DNA from: an uncultured Mucilaginibacter sp.
GTDB taxonomy: Bacteria; Bacteroidota; Bacteroidia; Sphingobacteriales; Sphingobacteriaceae
Direction of reading: 5' to 3'
Length of the DNA: 64,000 nt
NCBI RefSeq assembly: GCF_903893715.1
Contig: NZ_CAITNG010000024.1
Location: 1 to 64,000, forward strand
This document shows positions 271-7,775 of the stretch, piece after piece. Both the position numbers and the translations under genes were made by a program. The notes beneath the pieces were generated by a model that saw only the letters and a list, made by a program, of their open reading frames with translations, did not search any database and was not told the DNA's origin. Every line of letters begins with the position of its first letter. Position 1 is the first letter of the stretch.

Positions 271-1626
271 TCACTTCGCCGAAATCCTATACAACACCGC
301 CCCATGCTTATTCACAGTCGCGGTAAATATATTGCTCACCGTGCCCACATCTTTCTTGGCCCACAGGTCGCGCACTTTGCAGGCGCCATCAAAATCCAAA
401 TCGCTTAGTTTTACCGATATCTTTACCGGGTCGGCGGCATCACCGGGGTTAAATATGGCCACGTATTTATCGCCCGGGTTTTCGCCGTCGGCTATCCATA
501 CAATGCCATCCGCATTGCGCTGCAGTTCTTTATTGTTGCTGCTGGTCTTCAATACATTCATCACCTCTTTATTGTTGAGCAGCGACAAGGTAAACTCATC
601 ATTATCCGGCAAATTGCCCCCAAACATCATCGGCGAGCGGAAGATGGTCCACAGCGTCATCAGAGTATATTGTTCATCGTGTGTAAAGGCGGTCATCCTC
701 GGGTTGCCACGCTCAGCACGGATGCCAATCTTACCCAATGGCAGCATATCGCCATCGGGCCAGCCACCGGCTATGCGGTATTGGTTCCAACGCTCAAACA
801 CATCAAAATGGTCTTTCAGCATTTTCCAGTTATCCCAAAAGTCATCCACCGTGCGCCACATGTTGGCATTCTTCTGAATGTCAGCAGCGGCGTACACCGG
901 TGTTTCGCCAGGTGATGTACTGAGCACAATTTTTCTCCCGCAAAGGTCAATAGCTTTGCGTATCATGGCAACTTCGGGGCCGTGGTAGGGGCGCGACAGG
1001 TCGTCCACCTTTACAAAGTCGATGCCCCACTCGGCATACATCTTGAACAGCGAGTTATAATAATCCTGCGAACCTTCGCGACCGGGAAGTGTGCCGTACA
1101 TATCATGCAGCCAGGTACATTGGTCTTGTTTGTTGGCAACATCGGCAGCGGTATAAATGCTGCCATCTATCGGGAGTTTACGCTTTACCGCTTCCACCGG
1201 AACGCCACGCATAATATGTATCCCAAATTTTAAACCTTTGCCATGCACATAATTGGCCAGCGATTTAAAGCCCTTGCCATCCTTTGCCGACGGGAATTTG
1301 TTGACCGATGGCTGAAAACGGCCATATTCATCCAGTACATAATCGGGATTGGTTTCGTTATAACCGTGGGCTTTATCGTTGCCCACATACCAGCGTATAT
1401 CCACAATGATATATTCCCATCCCGCCGATTTTAGGTTTTTGGCCATATAATCGGCATTGGCTTTTACTTCATCTTCGGTAACGGTAGGGCCATAGCAGTC
1501 CCAGCTGTTCCAACCCATCGGAGGGGTAGGCGCCCATTGGTGAAAATCCTTTTTTTGCTGCGCATGCGCCGTTAGGGCAATACCTGCCGATAACAAAAGC
1601 GCCGCCGAAAATCCGGATAGTTTCAT
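271..1626 (-). CDS. Secreted GH27 glycoside hydrolase, probable beta-L-arabinopyranosidase
   Basis: A 451-aa exported enzyme with a Sec signal ending near AHA-QQ (residue 22). The GH27 (beta/alpha)8 domain opens with PPMGWNSWDCYG (about 36-46). The nucleophile is predicted as D208 in FVKVDD and the acid/base as D262 in RTVDD. GH27 alpha-galactosidases normally carry a DD pair after the second strand (IDDCW); here the motif reads VDIRW, so the second Asp is Ile77. An Asp-to-Ile change at this pocket was reported to turn a Streptomyces GH27 enzyme into a beta-L-arabinopyranosidase. The gene lies 13 bp after araD in the araB-araD transcript, which supports release of L-arabinose rather than galactose. 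An ordinary alpha-galactosidase remains possible. There is no C-terminal binding module. Confidence 0.8.
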   Translation of the reverse strand: MKLSGFSAALLLSAGIALTAHAQQKKDFHQWAPTPPMGWNSWDCYGPTVTEDEVKANADYMAKNLKSAGWEYIIVDIRWYVGNDKAHGYNETNPDYVLDEYGRFQPSVNKFPSAKDGKGFKSLANYVHGKGLKFGIHIMRGVPVEAVKRKLPIDGSIYTAADVANKQDQCTWLHDMYGTLPGREGSQDYYNSLFKMYAEWGIDFVKVDDLSRPYHGPEVAMIRKAIDLCGRKIVLSTSPGETPVYAAADIQKNANMWRTVDDFWDNWKMLKDHFDVFERWNQYRIAGGWPDGDMLPLGKIGIRAERGNPRMTAFTHDEQYTLMTLWTIFRSPMMFGGNLPDNDEFTLSLLNNKEVMNVLKTSSNNKELQRNADGIVWIADGENPGDKYVAIFNPGDAADPVKISVKLSDLDFDGACKVRDLWAKKDVGTVSNIFTATVNKHGAVLYRISAK

Positions 1627-1639
1627 GTTGTTGCTGCTT

Positions 1640-2338
1640 TTATTGACCGTAATAACTGCCCTCGCCGTGCTTACGTTCGTAATGTTTATTGATGAGCGCG
1701 TCTTTTAAACGCGGCGCTTTCGGATTTATTTGCTCCGTTAACAAAGCCATTTGGGCTATTGCTTCCAAAACAGCGCTGTTATGCACCGCTTTATGGGCAT
1801 TCTTGCCCCAGGTAAAGGGTGCGTGGTTGCCTACCAATATCATTTCCACTTCTTTATAGCTCATGCCTTTTTCGTGCAGGCAATTCATGATCTGGAAACC
1901 GGTTTGGAACTCGTAATCGCCTTTTATCATCTCGTCGCTCATCGGCGGCGCGCAGGGGATGTTCACGGTATTATAATCGGCATGTGTAGTACCAAAAATC
2001 GGGATGTCCCTTTGCGATTGCGCCCATGCCGTAGCGTAGGTGGAGTGCGTATGCACAATACCTCCAATGCTGTCCCAGTGTTTGTACAGCACCGCGTGGG
2101 TTTTGGTATCTGATGATGGGCGTAGTTTACCTTCAACAGTATTGCCATCAAAATCAACAATGACCATCTTTTCCGGCGACAGATCTTCATAAGCCACACC
2201 GCTCGGTTTTATCGCGAACACGCCCATCGACCGATCGACTGCACTCACGTTCCCAAAGGTAAAAATCACCAGCTTTAACTCCGGTAATTCCATATTGGCC
2301 GCGTAAGCTTCCTCTTGTATATGCTGATATTTACTCAT
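1640..2338 (-). CDS. araD: L-ribulose-5-phosphate 4-epimerase
   Basis: A 232-aa class II aldolase-fold protein of the usual AraD length. It converts L-ribulose-5-phosphate to D-xylulose-5-phosphate, which enters the pentose phosphate pathway. Visible family signatures include the phosphate-binding stretch SGVAYEDLSPEKMVIVD (about 46-63) and the metal-binding histidines in GGIVHTHSTYATAWAQ (about 93-108), with a further conserved segment LVGNHAPFTWG near 168. Its ATG overlaps the araB stop by one base (TAATG), so translation is coupled. The GH27 gene follows in the same transcript. araA, the isomerase of the pathway, is not in the window. Confidence 0.93.
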   Translation of the reverse strand: MSKYQHIQEEAYAANMELPELKLVIFTFGNVSAVDRSMGVFAIKPSGVAYEDLSPEKMVIVDFDGNTVEGKLRPSSDTKTHAVLYKHWDSIGGIVHTHSTYATAWAQSQRDIPIFGTTHADYNTVNIPCAPPMSDEMIKGDYEFQTGFQIMNCLHEKGMSYKEVEMILVGNHAPFTWGKNAHKAVHNSAVLEAIAQMALLTEQINPKAPRLKDALINKHYERKHGEGSYYGQ

Positions 2339-4014
2339 TAGTGTTTTGCTGTTTGTTGTTCAATAAAGTTACCCAGGCTATTGTATTGTTGATAGCGCCG
2401 GTTATAAATTTCCTGTGTGGCCTTGTCGGGAAAATACTCCACGTCAAAACCACCGCCCATGGCTGCCATGGCATCTTCAACCGTAGGGTAAATACCCGCT
2501 GCCGTTGCCGCGAACATAGTCGCGCCCATAGCGCAGGTTTGCTCCTGGCTGTGGATGCGGATAGGCATATTCAATACATCGGCCATCATTTGCATAATGT
2601 ATGGCGATTTGCGCGCTACACCACCCACGCCGATGATACCCTTCACCGGCACACCTTCGCTGATAAAGCGGTCAACTATTTTCTTCGCGCCAAAGCAGGT
2701 CGACTCGACCAATGCTTTAAATACCCGCGGCGCATCGCTGCCCAAACCCAAACCGGTAATGGCGCCTTTCAGTTCCTGGTTGGCGTCGGGGGTACGGCGA
2801 CCATTAAACCAGTCAACAGCCACTTCATTTTCATCTATCGGTAATAATGCTGCCTGGCGGCTCAGTTCAGGGATAATCTTGCCTGATACTTCGTCTCTCA
2901 ACAACTTCGCGGTAGCGGCATCAATAACTTTCGATTCTAATAAGATATCACCCAATGGCCATTCCAATAACTTACGGAACCAGGCATAAGTATCGCCAAA
3001 AGCCGATTGCCCGGCCTCCATGCCCAGCATTCCCGGGATAACCGAGCCATCTACCTGTCCGCAAATACCTTTAATGAGTTTGCCTTCAAGGTCAACAGCA
3101 GGAGCAACCAAAATATCGCAGGTGGAAGTACCCATCACTTTACTCAGGTGATAGGGCTCTATCTGCCCGCCAACGGCGCCCATGTGCGCGTCGAAAGCGC
3201 CAACACCAACCACTACATCGGTGGATAAGCCCAAACGCTCCGCCCATTCCTTGCTCAGGTTACCGGCCGAAACATCTGAAGTATAAGTATCTTTAAATAA
3301 TCGCGAAGTAATGCCTTTCAACAGCGGGTCGAGCGATGAGAAGAACTCATCGGGCGGCAAGCCACCAAATTCCGCCGACCATAAAGCCTTGTGCCCCGCG
3401 GAACAGCGCCCGCGTTTTATGTCAGAGGCATGTTTGCCGCCGGTCAGTAAAAAGGGTATCCAGTCGCAATGCTCCACCCAACTGTACATGGCTTTGCGTA
3501 CGGCTTCGTCGGTACGCAAAGTGCGCAGCAACTTGGCCCAAAACCATTCGGATGAATATATGCCGCCCACGTATTGCAGGTAATTGATATCAAATTTTGT
3601 GGCGTGTTCGTTAATTTCAGACGCTTCTTTTATGCCGGTATGGTCCTTCCACAACACAAACATGGCGTGCGGGTTGTTCTCAAAACCGGGTAACAACGCC
3701 AATGGTGTGCCGCTCTCATCAACCGCTACAGGCGTCGAGCCGGTAGTATCCACCGATATGGCTTTTACCGATGCCGCGCAATTGCCGCCTGCTTTGGCCA
3801 AACAATCTTTAATGGTTTTCTCCAAGCCATCAATATAATCCAAAGGGTGCTGCCTGAATTGGTTTTGCGGGGCGTCGCAAAAAAGGCCTTGCTGCCAGCG
3901 CGGGTAATAAAAAACCGACGAAGCCAGTTCATGCCCGTTTTTGGCGTCAACTAATACCGAGCGTACCGAATCACTTCCGTAATCTACGCCTATAACAAAA
4001 GTGTCTTTATTCAT
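2338..4014 (-). CDS. araB: Ribulokinase
   Basis: A 558-aa FGGY-family sugar kinase that phosphorylates L-ribulose with ATP. The N-terminal phosphate loop reads VIGVDYGSDSVRSVLVD (about 7-23), where the DYGSDSVRS form is typical of ribulokinase. VGVGAFDAHMGAVGGQ (about 268-283) provides the putative catalytic Asp, and the C-terminal ATP site has GVGGVARKSPYIMQMMADV (about 462-480). Length fits the family. It is the first gene of the minus-strand operon araB-araD-GH27. A perfect 8-bp-arm palindrome at 4047-4072 lies 33 bp upstream and is a probable operator. Confidence 0.94.
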   Translation of the reverse strand: MNKDTFVIGVDYGSDSVRSVLVDAKNGHELASSVFYYPRWQQGLFCDAPQNQFRQHPLDYIDGLEKTIKDCLAKAGGNCAASVKAISVDTTGSTPVAVDESGTPLALLPGFENNPHAMFVLWKDHTGIKEASEINEHATKFDINYLQYVGGIYSSEWFWAKLLRTLRTDEAVRKAMYSWVEHCDWIPFLLTGGKHASDIKRGRCSAGHKALWSAEFGGLPPDEFFSSLDPLLKGITSRLFKDTYTSDVSAGNLSKEWAERLGLSTDVVVGVGAFDAHMGAVGGQIEPYHLSKVMGTSTCDILVAPAVDLEGKLIKGICGQVDGSVIPGMLGMEAGQSAFGDTYAWFRKLLEWPLGDILLESKVIDAATAKLLRDEVSGKIIPELSRQAALLPIDENEVAVDWFNGRRTPDANQELKGAITGLGLGSDAPRVFKALVESTCFGAKKIVDRFISEGVPVKGIIGVGGVARKSPYIMQMMADVLNMPIRIHSQEQTCAMGATMFAATAAGIYPTVEDAMAAMGGGFDVEYFPDKATQEIYNRRYQQYNSLGNFIEQQTAKH

Positions 4015-4046
4015 AATTGGTTAATGTGTCTAATTAACACTTATTT

Positions 4047-4124: not shown

Positions 4125-4835
4125 CTACACCAACTGCAAATGGTCGGGGTTGGGTATCAAATTCAAGAATGCGTGGAAATTCTCTTTGTATTTATTCTTA
4201 TCCAACACATAGTAAAACGCGCCTTTTTTAGAGTTCAGCTTGTCTTTGTCTTTTTGTTTGATGAGCAAGCCGGTGGATAGCAGCTTCCGGCTAAAGTTCC
4301 GTTTGTCGAATACACTATCGTATATCCCCTCGTACAAACTTTGCAGCTGCGGGATGGTAAATTTTTCGGGCAACAGCTCAAACAAAATAGGGTGGAGGGC
4401 AGCCTTGTAGCGCAATTTTTTCCGTGCGGTATCCACCATATCGTTATGGTCAAAAATCAGGGAAGGTATCTTATCCAGCTCAAACCATTCGGCATGGTAC
4501 TCGTGGCTCAACTGCTGCTCATATTTATGGATGTCAATCAGCGCGAAGTAGGCAATGCTCACTATCCTGTCTCCCGGGTCGCGGTAAACGGCGCCAAAGG
4601 CATGCAACTGTTCCATGTACACCCCTTCAAGTCCGGTCAATTTTTTTAAGATGTTATTGGCCGCTTCATCCAAACTCTCTTTGGTATTTACAAATCCCCC
4701 CATCAGGCTCCACTTGTGCATCTCGGGCTCTATACCACGTTGTATCAGCAACAGCTTCAACCTCTCGCCGTCAAAGCCAAAGATGATACAGTCGATTGCA
4801 ATTAATATAGGTGCTTGGTGGGCGTATTTGGCCAT
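4125..4835 (-). CDS. araR: Nudix-type transcriptional regulator of arabinose genes (AraR/NrtR family)
   Basis: A 236-aa protein with an N-terminal Nudix domain (about 8-140) and a C-terminal winged-helix part (about 155-225), the plan of NrtR-family regulators. The Nudix box starts GGFVNTKESLDEAAN, but the catalytic REUxEE segment reads NILKKL (61-66), so hydrolysis should be lost and the domain probably acts only as a sensor. Bacteroides AraR is a member of this group and responds to L-arabinose. It sits between araB and the divergent GH51 gene, next to palindromes at 4047-4072 and 4953-4975. The sensed ligand here is inferred from context. Confidence 0.85.
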   Translation of the reverse strand: MAKYAHQAPILIAIDCIIFGFDGERLKLLLIQRGIEPEMHKWSLMGGFVNTKESLDEAANNILKKLTGLEGVYMEQLHAFGAVYRDPGDRIVSIAYFALIDIHKYEQQLSHEYHAEWFELDKIPSLIFDHNDMVDTARKKLRYKAALHPILFELLPEKFTIPQLQSLYEGIYDSVFDKRNFSRKLLSTGLLIKQKDKDKLNSKKGAFYYVLDKNKYKENFHAFLNLIPNPDHLQLV

Positions 4836-5047: not shown

Positions 5048-6595
5048 ATGAAATTAACAGTAAAACTCTCTTTGGTGCTCTGTTTTTTGTACATCACCGG
5101 AAATTGCCAAACGCCGGTTACATTATCCATCAGCCCCGGCGATGCCAATCTCACCATCAGTAAGCATATTTACGGGCACTTTTCGGAACACTTAGGCCAT
5201 TGTATTTATGGTGGCTTTTGGGTCGACCCGAGCCTCAATGTGCCAAAAACAGACCGTATCCGCATGGATATTGTTGATGCCCTGGTTAAAATAAAGATAC
5301 CTAACCTGCGCTGGCCCGGCGGCTGTTTTGCCGATGAGTACCACTGGCGCGACGGCATTGGTCCGCGCGACCAAAGGCCCAAAATGGTGAATACCAACTG
5401 GGGTGGCGTAAGCGAAGACAACAGCTTTGGTACACACGAATTTTTGGAACTTTGCAAGCTATTGCATTGCGAACCCTACATAGCCGGTAACATGGGTAGC
5501 GGCACTGTAGAAGAAATGGCCAAATGGGTGGAATACCTCAATTGCGGTGCCGAAACCACTGTAACCAATATGCGCAAAGCCAACGGCCACCCCGATCCCT
5601 TTAAGGTTACCTTTTGGGGTGTGGGCAACGAAAGCTGGGGCTGCGGCGGTAATATGACGCCCGACTTTTACAGTGATAATTACAAACGCTACGCCACTTA
5701 CGCCCGCAACTATCCGGGTACACCGCTTAAAAAAATAGCCAGCGGCTCTAACGGTAAAGATTATAACTGGACAGATGTTTGTATGCGGAAAATTGGCGCC
5801 AACAACATGTGGGGCATTACCCTGCACTGGTATACCCTGCCAACCGGCAACTGGGGCGATAAAGGCTCGGCCACCAATTTTGACGAAGCGCAATATTTTA
5901 ACACCATGAAAAACTGTTGGGAAATGGACGACATCGTTGCCAAGCACTCGGCTATTATGGATAAGTACGACCCTACAAAAAAAGTAGCTTTAGTGGTTGA
6001 CGAATGGGGCGTGTGGACCAATGTTGAACCCGGCACCAACCCCGGCTTTCTGTTTCAGCAAAACAGCTTGCGCGATGCTTTGGTAGCGGGCACTACACTC
6101 AATATCTTTAACAACCATTGCGACCGTGTGCGCATGGCTTGTCTGGCACAAAGCATCAATGTTTTGCAGGCTTTGATTTTAACCGATAAGGAAAAAATGC
6201 TGCTCACCCCAACTTACCATGTGTTCGATTTATACAAAGTGCACCAGGATGCCAAATACCTGCCCATCAAATTTACTTCGCCCGATTATGTGGTTGGTGA
6301 TAGCAAATTACCGGCATTAAACGCCTCGGCCTCTATCGATTCGAACAAGGTTATCCATATCTCCATTGTCAATATCGATAACAGCAAAGCTATCAGCATC
6401 CGTACGGCATTGAGCGGTTTAAAATGGAGCACGGTTAGCGGACAAATTTTAACCTCAGCAAAAGTTACCGATATTAATACCTTTGATAAACCAAATAACA
6501 TCCATATCGTTAACTTTAACGGTGCCAAAAAAGACGGGAACGACCTTGTTGCCGATTTGCCGCCGCACTCCATCGTAGTTTTAGAATTAAAATAG
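5048..6595 (+). CDS. Alpha-L-arabinofuranosidase, GH51, exported
   Basis: A 515-aa GH51 enzyme that removes arabinofuranosyl caps from arabinan, arabinoxylan or arabinogalactan. The ATG at 5048 is chosen because it opens a clear signal peptide (MKLTVKLSLVLCFLYITGNC); the frame is open for 35 codons upstream, but these look like leader and contain the operator. The acid/base is E195 in WGVGNESWG and the nucleophile E319 in VVDEWGVW. The C-terminal beta domain runs from about 400. Many GH51 enzymes are cytosolic, so the signal peptide suggests periplasmic action. The mutarotase follows by 37 bp in the same direction. Confidence 0.93.
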   Translation: MKLTVKLSLVLCFLYITGNCQTPVTLSISPGDANLTISKHIYGHFSEHLGHCIYGGFWVDPSLNVPKTDRIRMDIVDALVKIKIPNLRWPGGCFADEYHWRDGIGPRDQRPKMVNTNWGGVSEDNSFGTHEFLELCKLLHCEPYIAGNMGSGTVEEMAKWVEYLNCGAETTVTNMRKANGHPDPFKVTFWGVGNESWGCGGNMTPDFYSDNYKRYATYARNYPGTPLKKIASGSNGKDYNWTDVCMRKIGANNMWGITLHWYTLPTGNWGDKGSATNFDEAQYFNTMKNCWEMDDIVAKHSAIMDKYDPTKKVALVVDEWGVWTNVEPGTNPGFLFQQNSLRDALVAGTTLNIFNNHCDRVRMACLAQSINVLQALILTDKEKMLLTPTYHVFDLYKVHQDAKYLPIKFTSPDYVVGDSKLPALNASASIDSNKVIHISIVNIDNSKAISIRTALSGLKWSTVSGQILTSAKVTDINTFDKPNNIHIVNFNGAKKDGNDLVADLPPHSIVVLELK

Positions 6596-6632: not shown

Positions 6633-7775
6633 ATGAAAAAGAGACTTATTTTTACCAACCTTACGGGCCTGTTCATCATAGGCTCCATTTTTACATCGTG
6701 TATGAACAAAACCACTAACAATGCCTCAAAGCCCGGCATTACCAAACAAGCCTGGGATAGTGTAGGCAAACAAGCTGTCGACCTCTACACCCTCACAAAT
6801 AAAAATGGTGTCGAAATCAAAATATCAAACTACGGCGGTAAAGTAACCTCCTGGATAACAAAAGACAAAAGCGGAAAATCATCAAGCATTGTTTTAGGTT
6901 TTGATAGCGCTAAAAAATACACCCCGGCTGTACCTTATTTTGGCGCGCTGATAGGCCGCTACGGTAACCGCATTGCCAAAGGTAAATTTACTGTGGATGG
7001 TAAAGAATATACCCTGGCCACTAATAATGGCGTTAACCACCTGCATGGCGGCAATATTGGTTTTGATAAAGTAGTTTGGACCGCCGACCCGATAGTGGAT
7101 TCGGTATCAAGCTTGACCCTCAACTACCTGAGCAAAGACGGCGAAGAAGGCTACCCCGGTAACCTGAAAGTAACCGTTAAATACACTTTAACAGATGCAG
7201 ATGAGTTGAAAATTGAATACAAAGCCACAACCGATAAAGCTACCCCGGTAAACCTCACCAACCATAGCTATTTTAACCTAAGCGGCGACCCGACCACGCC
7301 GATTTTAGATGAAGAAATTCAAATCAACGCGGATAAATTTACTCCGGTAAACGATGCGTTGATCCCAACAGGAGAATTGAAGGACGTAAAAGGCACACCT
7401 TTCGATTTTACAAAACCAACAAAAATTGGCGCGCATATTAACGAAGTACCGGGCAAACCGGTAGGTTACGACCATAACTTTGTTCTCCGCGTATCCGACA
7501 CGACATTGCACCAGGCTGCGATAGTTTATGATGCGACAAGCGGCCGCCAGTTGGAAGTACTAACCACCGAACCGGGCATCCAGTTTTATACCGGTAACTT
7601 TTTAGATGGCACCCTGAAATTAGACAATGGCAAACCCATCAATCAACATACCGCGTTGTGTTTAGAGACCCAGCATTTCCCCGATTCACCAAACGAACCG
7701 GCTTTCCCGAACACTATTTTAAAACCCGGCGAAACATTGCACAGCACTACTATTTACAAGGTAACTGTACGATAA
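6633..7775 (+). CDS. galM: Aldose 1-epimerase (mutarotase), lipoprotein
   Basis: A 380-aa GalM-family protein that interconverts alpha and beta anomers of free sugars. A lipobox (FTSC, C23) predicts anchoring in the envelope. Typical signatures are GRYGNRIAKGKF (about 109-120), the catalytic-histidine region NHLHGGNIGFDKVVW (about 136-150), VNLTNHSYFNLSG (about 207-219) and, near the C-terminus, ALCLETQHFPDSPN with the likely catalytic Glu. It follows the GH51 gene and ends at a strong terminator (7805). Context suggests arabinose released in the periplasm as its substrate, while galactose remains possible. Confidence 0.92.
   Translation: MKKRLIFTNLTGLFIIGSIFTSCMNKTTNNASKPGITKQAWDSVGKQAVDLYTLTNKNGVEIKISNYGGKVTSWITKDKSGKSSSIVLGFDSAKKYTPAVPYFGALIGRYGNRIAKGKFTVDGKEYTLATNNGVNHLHGGNIGFDKVVWTADPIVDSVSSLTLNYLSKDGEEGYPGNLKVTVKYTLTDADELKIEYKATTDKATPVNLTNHSYFNLSGDPTTPILDEEIQINADKFTPVNDALIPTGELKDVKGTPFDFTKPTKIGAHINEVPGKPVGYDHNFVLRVSDTTLHQAAIVYDATSGRQLEVLTTEPGIQFYTGNFLDGTLKLDNGKPINQHTALCLETQHFPDSPNEPAFPNTILKPGETLHSTTIYKVTVR

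Follow-up and report, generated by a model that had tools for sequence, protein, structure and literature searches.

Which sugar is released by the family GH27 glycoside hydrolase encoded at the beginning of this 64,000-nucleotide stretch (the window) from an uncultured Mucilaginibacter sp.? The gene (271–1626, minus strand) specifies a protein of 451 residues, predicted from sequence search and structure matching to be a beta-L-arabinopyranosidase. Pfam reports a Melibiase_2 domain ("Alpha galactosidase A") and a Melibiase_C domain, and no NCBIfam model matches the protein at E 0.001, so that routine annotation would probably give it the name "alpha-galactosidase" or a bare family name. We hold it to be highly probable that the product is exported and acts as a retaining GH27 beta-L-arabinopyranosidase, belonging to the clade that contains GsAbp and CpArap27 ("Group VI"), and that its gene lies inside an arabinose operon under the control of AraR. 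Direct support comes from the residue at the specificity position, the clade, the predicted fold, the gene order, an operator-like sequence and the conserved ligand residues of AraR; because the specificity residue, the clade and the arabinose operon all agree, the enzyme very likely releases L-arabinopyranose from plant sugars. The kind of enzyme is already known, and the gene adds a member to Group VI. The less expected finding is that a phenylalanine-type GH27 clade occupies the same operon slot in genus-mates.

The Specificity Residue

The sequence-only reading had pointed to a D76-I77 pair (VDIRW) at positions 1396–1401, and the pair is indeed there: in the minus-strand open reading frame (ORF) with coordinates 1626–271, the invariant Asp76 (1401–1399) and the specificity-switch residue Ile77 (1398–1396) lie within the segment EYIIVDIRWY. 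That Ile77 stands at the GH27 switch position, as that reading also proposed, is confirmed by HMMER alignment to solved proteins. It pairs with Ile67 of GsAbp (PDB 4nx0), the isoleucine of VDIQW, whose counted number equals the published one, and with the second aspartate of the IDDCW pair in the rice alpha-galactosidase 1uas. The protein thus has isoleucine where GH27 alpha-galactosidases have aspartate. Two further GH27 genes were found in the same genome, both with aspartate at the switch (INIDDAW in L113, LVLDDAW in L137). The catalytic residues are also in place, with Asp208 (1003–1005) corresponding by alignment and model match to the nucleophile Asp197 of GsAbp, the residue mutated to alanine in 4nxk, and Asp262 (841–843) corresponding by alignment to its acid/base, Asp255.

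McKee and Brumer (2015; PMC4598101) describe Asp as the switch residue of alpha-galactosidases, either Glu or Ile as that of beta-L-arabinopyranosidases, and Cys as that of two flexible fungal enzymes. The Ile-type enzymes are GsAbp (Ile67) and CpArap27 (Ile56), both characterized as beta-L-arabinopyranosidases of Group VI (PMC4598101); a tyrosine is reported at this position in plant APSE (PMC5853685). The earlier reading had named the Streptomyces avermitilis enzyme as the precedent for an Asp-to-Ile change. That precedent has to be given up, since the S. avermitilis enzyme, SaArap27A, carries Glu99 at the switch (PMC4598101; PMC5853685); the isoleucine belongs to GsAbp and CpArap27. SaArap27A (PDB 3a21) shares with the window protein the GH27 fold and has beta-L-arabinopyranosidase activity, but it differs in its Glu99 (PMC5853685), in its four domains (PMC4598101) and in being a remoter structural match (Z 37.0).

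It had further been argued that a single pocket change explains the switch in substrate. In favor of this, the E99D mutant of SaArap27A flips to a preference for the galactoside (1:9 in the text of PMC4598101, 1:4.4 in its Table 2), with its own activity weakened. The Ile enzymes do not bear it out: as reported in the same paper, CpArap27 I56D acts very weakly on both p-nitrophenyl (pNP) substrates and keeps its preference for the arabinoside, and GsAbp I67D gains merely threefold on the galactoside. The proposed physical cause, loss of the contact to the C5 hydroxymethyl group, likewise stands only in part, the published account of GsAbp specificity being a steric clash with the isoleucine rather than a lost contact only (PMC4598101).

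Because beta-L-arabinopyranosides and alpha-D-galactosides differ at C5 alone, one might ask whether the enzyme cuts both kinds of terminus in vivo, as the fungal GH27 enzymes FoAp1 and FoAp2 accept both sugars (PMC4598101, Table 2). We think such a dual enzyme very unlikely, given that the dual fungal enzymes have cysteine at the switch and that both characterized Ile enzymes are strict or nearly so, wild-type CpArap27 being strict for pNP-beta-L-arabinopyranoside (PMC4598101).

Predicted Fold and Clade

The nearest solved proteins are GsAbp of Geobacillus stearothermophilus (4nx0, 4nxk and 4nzf; E ~1e-145 over residues 27–449) and BH1870 (3cc1), with the plant alpha-galactosidases ranking far below both. 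A predicted model of the protein, compared as a whole fold, has a mean pLDDT (predicted local distance difference test) of 87.6, with residues 80–86, just past the motif, below 50. It superposes on the GsAbp structures with Z ~55 and 52% identity at 1.7–1.8 Å over 422–423 residues, as against Z 46.7 for BH1870 and at most 41.0 for other GH27 structures, alpha-galactosidases included. Residues 27–449 are collinear with GsAbp 17–441, even through insertions that the rice alpha-galactosidase lacks: opposite the rice enzyme, residues 142–183 (42 residues) face 98–105 (8 residues), and residues 33–141 face 7–97. By alignment, the protein shares with GsAbp the loop insertions (L6–L8) that alpha-galactosidases lack, the loops being compared by span.

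Likeness to GsAbp thus extends over the isoleucine, both catalytic aspartates and the whole collinear protein. The two differ in that GsAbp comes from a Gram-positive host and is 52% identical, whereas the window protein has an apparent signal peptide (residues 1–22, from visual inspection of the N-terminus) and belongs to an operon with an NrtR-type AraR. A second counterpart is CpArap27 (Cpin_5740) of Chitinophaga pinensis, likewise from a member of the Bacteroidetes and likewise reported with an isoleucine switch (Ile56), a signal peptide and a GH51 neighbor (PMC4598101), a likeness drawn from its published description; as a point of difference, it is described as having no genes for carbohydrate-active enzymes nearby besides that GH51 (PMC4598101).

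We gathered and aligned 122 GH27 ORFs, of which one is a duplicate; the sources were 42 loci from named genomes, 61 family genomes (E 1e-10) and 247 phylum genomes (E 1e-20). The switch column holds Ile in 57, Asp in 50, Phe in 7, Gly in 4, Ala in 3 and Tyr in 1. The aspartate before it is invariant (122/122), as is the acid/base aspartate (122/122), and the nucleophile column is aspartate in 121, with one gap. A quick-method tree was drawn from 82 rows, comprising 80 of these ORFs, the query and GsAbp; the 42 omitted ORFs are one duplicate, one partial sequence and 40 scoring under 130 bits (36 with Asp, 4 with Gly). A single branch (88 in the Shimodaira–Hasegawa-like approximate likelihood ratio test, SH-aLRT) sets off the 57 Ile rows, which include the query and GsAbp, so that Ile77 is no chance match. 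The 14 Asp rows stand apart (SH-aLRT 100), and the Phe rows cluster with the lone Tyr row, L160:4379-5881 on the minus strand, at a support of 91; this cluster neighbors the Ile clade, whose support is 88. On this tree the Ile (57), Phe (7), Ala (3) and Asp (14) rows each require one change, although several forks have support below 90 and some of the Ala, Tyr and Phe rows are long-branched.

An ordinary alpha-galactosidase in which isoleucine stands at the switch incidentally would suit the Pfam name and the lack of a naming NCBIfam model. We rate it as extremely improbable: wild-type GsAbp and CpArap27 are reported with trace or no galactosidase activity (PMC4598101), both the whole protein and its model match GsAbp first, and the gene is placed in an arabinose operon. 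The preference for a beta-L-arabinopyranosidase over an alpha-galactosidase voiced in the sequence-only reading is, as a prediction of activity, strongly supported by residue, whole-protein clade and operon. A likely mis-annotation is thereby corrected in a group of soil Bacteroidetes.

Two features of the survey may be recorded here. Natural alanine at the switch, for which Table 2 of PMC4598101 lists "No examples", occurs in L109:9025-10536, L110:8984-10456 and L111:8903-10345. In 22 Ile-type ORFs (for example L019:9989-11833), an insert of 147–158 residues is found in the C-terminal beta-sandwich, at a place equivalent to query residue 397; the insert of L019, the only one scanned, contains an NPCBM domain.

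The Arabinose Operon and its Regulator

Upstream of the GH27 gene, and on the same strand, lie araD (L-ribulose-5-phosphate 4-epimerase; 1640–2338), 13 nucleotides before the GH27 start, and araB (ribulokinase; 2338–4014), which overlaps araD by one nucleotide. A predicted AraR operator, GTGT-N7-ACAC, follows at 4026–4040, 11 nucleotides before the araB start and with the spacing of the BtAraR co-crystal DNA, which is GTGT, seven bases and ACAC (PMC4666351). Beyond it are araR (4125–4835, minus strand), an NrtR-family regulator recognized by its similarity to BtAraR, and, divergent from araR on the plus strand, an alpha-L-arabinofuranosidase gene of GH51 type (Pfam Alpha-L-AF_C; 5048–6595) and an aldose 1-epimerase gene, an araM-like mutarotase (6633–7775).

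The regulator is 49.5% identical to BtAraR (5bs6; 106 of 214 aligned residues), as compared with 33% between AraR and XylR of Bacteroides thetaiotaomicron (PMC4666351), and on that ground we assign it to the AraR type. Arg34, Arg86 and His131, which hydrogen-bond L-arabinose, are all kept; among the hydrophobic ligand contacts checked, Phe36 and Val92 are each replaced by isoleucine. The exact operator pattern occurs once in the window, at 4026–4040, where 0.42 would be expected. By number alone this is no significant excess, at least one site turning up in 31 of 100 shuffles, and it is the position before araB that makes the argument. Its sequence, GTGTTAATTAGACAC, recurs as an identical 15-mer at the same distance in L026. 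Among the araB upstream regions of 11 relatives, the exact operator is present in four (L005, L006, L026 and L163), with one mismatch in L105 and L106, two in L010 and three in the Pedobacter loci L007, L008, L009 and L044. These last read ACGT-TAATTAG-ACGT before araB, as opposed to GTGT-TAATTAG-ACAC in the window and L026, with the same core and both arms altered, a changed palindrome that suggests a shifted AraR operator.

The locus resembles the Bacteroides BtAraR regulon in its NrtR-type AraR, araB, araD and araA, GH51, mutarotase and GTGT-N7-ACAC operator, and differs from it in gene order, which is araMPRDAB there (PMC4666351). A term search finds no GH27 in the main text of that paper. 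Abp orthologs have been reported as encoded in arabinan utilization loci (PMC4194401), and the present locus ties a predicted beta-L-arabinopyranosidase to an arabinose operon and its regulator.

The araD–araA Slot

Where an Ile-type GH27 gene lies within 300 nucleotides of an ara gene, the order is araB-araD-GH27-araA in all eight distinct loci. In the Mucilaginibacter rivuli locus, a GH127 gene (beta-L-arabinofuranosidase family; L005:11493-13460) stands between GH27 and araA.

Approached from the GH27 side, adjacency to ara genes is found in 11 of 67 rows with a bulky switch residue (Ile, Phe, Tyr or Ala) and in none of 54 with Asp or Gly (Fisher test, p 0.001), a figure on which we do not rely, the rows being related and the 42-locus set having been seeded with the query. 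A count anchored on araA is for these reasons the fairer comparison. At E 1e-50, araA is found in 56 of 101 family genomes, at 57 places; 54 of these regions were examined, leaving aside the window's own (at a contig end) and the G024 gene, which is split into two fragments. A GH27 gene stands between araD and araA in five of the 54, four of them Phe-type (VDFLW), one Ile-type (VDIRW) and none Asp-type. No GH27 was seen in the stretch read for 48 of the 54, and the search returned the same six genes with and without an 80-bit floor. Three of the five occupied slots were also known from the GH27 side (L240 is L105, L241 is L106, and L242 is L101 and L026), and L207 and L211 are additional. The slot is therefore optional and, when occupied, never holds an Asp-type gene in this sample. 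With the L-arabinose-type AraR and the exact operator 11 nucleotides before araB, this bears out the earlier argument that the operon, in its own right, predicts arabinose release.

The slot is filled by members of two GH27 clades, Ile-type and Phe/Tyr-type. The Phe-type genes in it (L105:9021-10421, L106:9043-10407, L163:8857-10335, L207:10416-11816 and L211:10459-11826) carry the motif VDFLW, except for VDFCW in L163, and four of the five come from genomes of genus-mates. We lean toward regarding the Phe-type as a further kind of beta-L-arabinopyranosidase, in which the aromatic ring would block the C6 pocket as is thought for the tyrosine of plant APSE. Phenylalanine at the GH27 switch was not found described in a limited literature search, the term "Phe" being absent from PMC4598101 and a term search of PMC12137362 hitting its reference list alone. 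Together, the Ile, Phe, Tyr and Ala forms that occur naturally among related GH27 genes provide ready material for probing how sugar choice is determined, a question that point mutants have not settled.

Evidence Against the Assignment

Several observations weigh against the arabinopyranosidase assignment or its operon context. GsAbp itself has trace alpha-galactoside activity (PMC4598101, Table 2), and mutants of the Ile enzymes show that specificity is not set by the switch residue alone (PMC4598101). The six DNA-contacting residues of BtAraR, Lys179, Arg180, Asn181, Lys184, Lys204 and Arg205, are described as invariant among orthologs (PMC4666351), and only four are identical in the window regulator, Lys184 being replaced by Arg and Arg205 by Lys, both conservative changes. 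In one araA region (L210), an Asp-type GH27 gene lies past araA by ~7 kb, not in the slot itself. Contig C24, to which the window belongs, ends 270 nucleotides past the GH27 gene, and adjacency to araA is consequently unseen in this genome. Finally, within 9.5 kb, 47 of 56 distinct Ile-type relatives have no araA, araB or araD match above 300 bits, the available sequence on one side being shorter than 7 kb in 13 of the 57 Ile rows; ara genes are within reach of just nine of the 56 (eight adjacent, one ~4 kb off). A tie between the Ile clade as a whole and arabinose operons was accordingly rejected, and the operon link is to be seen as a feature of the query's branch.

Proposed Pathway

For the GH27 system we infer co-transcription, export, regulation, substrate and activity, as follows. 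The enzyme would probably act outside the cytoplasm on non-reducing terminal beta-L-arabinopyranosyl caps, most likely those of arabinogalactan-type oligosaccharides. Ile77 would occupy the room in which alpha-galactosidases accommodate the C6 hydroxymethyl group, with Asp208 as the putative nucleophile and Asp262 as the putative acid/base. The GH51-type neighbor may strip alpha-L-arabinofuranosyl residues, and the mutarotase may equilibrate free arabinose. The L-arabinose so freed would be imported, isomerized by AraA, phosphorylated by AraB and epimerized by AraD. AraR, for its part, would repress araB-araD-GH27 from the site before araB until it binds L-arabinose.

The Contig End

The araA of this genome is found on contig C149, 203 nucleotides from the contig end. 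Positions 1–150 of the window are repeated at five other places with 97–100% identity, and a 26-nucleotide piece of them is found again next to araA, near the C149 end, as well as at five other places. In this genome (G000) the repeat at the window start is common to contigs C24, C47, C39, C48, C129, C74 and C149. A repeat inserted between GH27 and araA may account for both contig ends, other pairings of ends being possible. The repeat is perhaps an IS1595-like element, as suggested by a fragment of 28 residues whose match to the IS1595 zinc ribbon falls short of the threshold (E 0.14).
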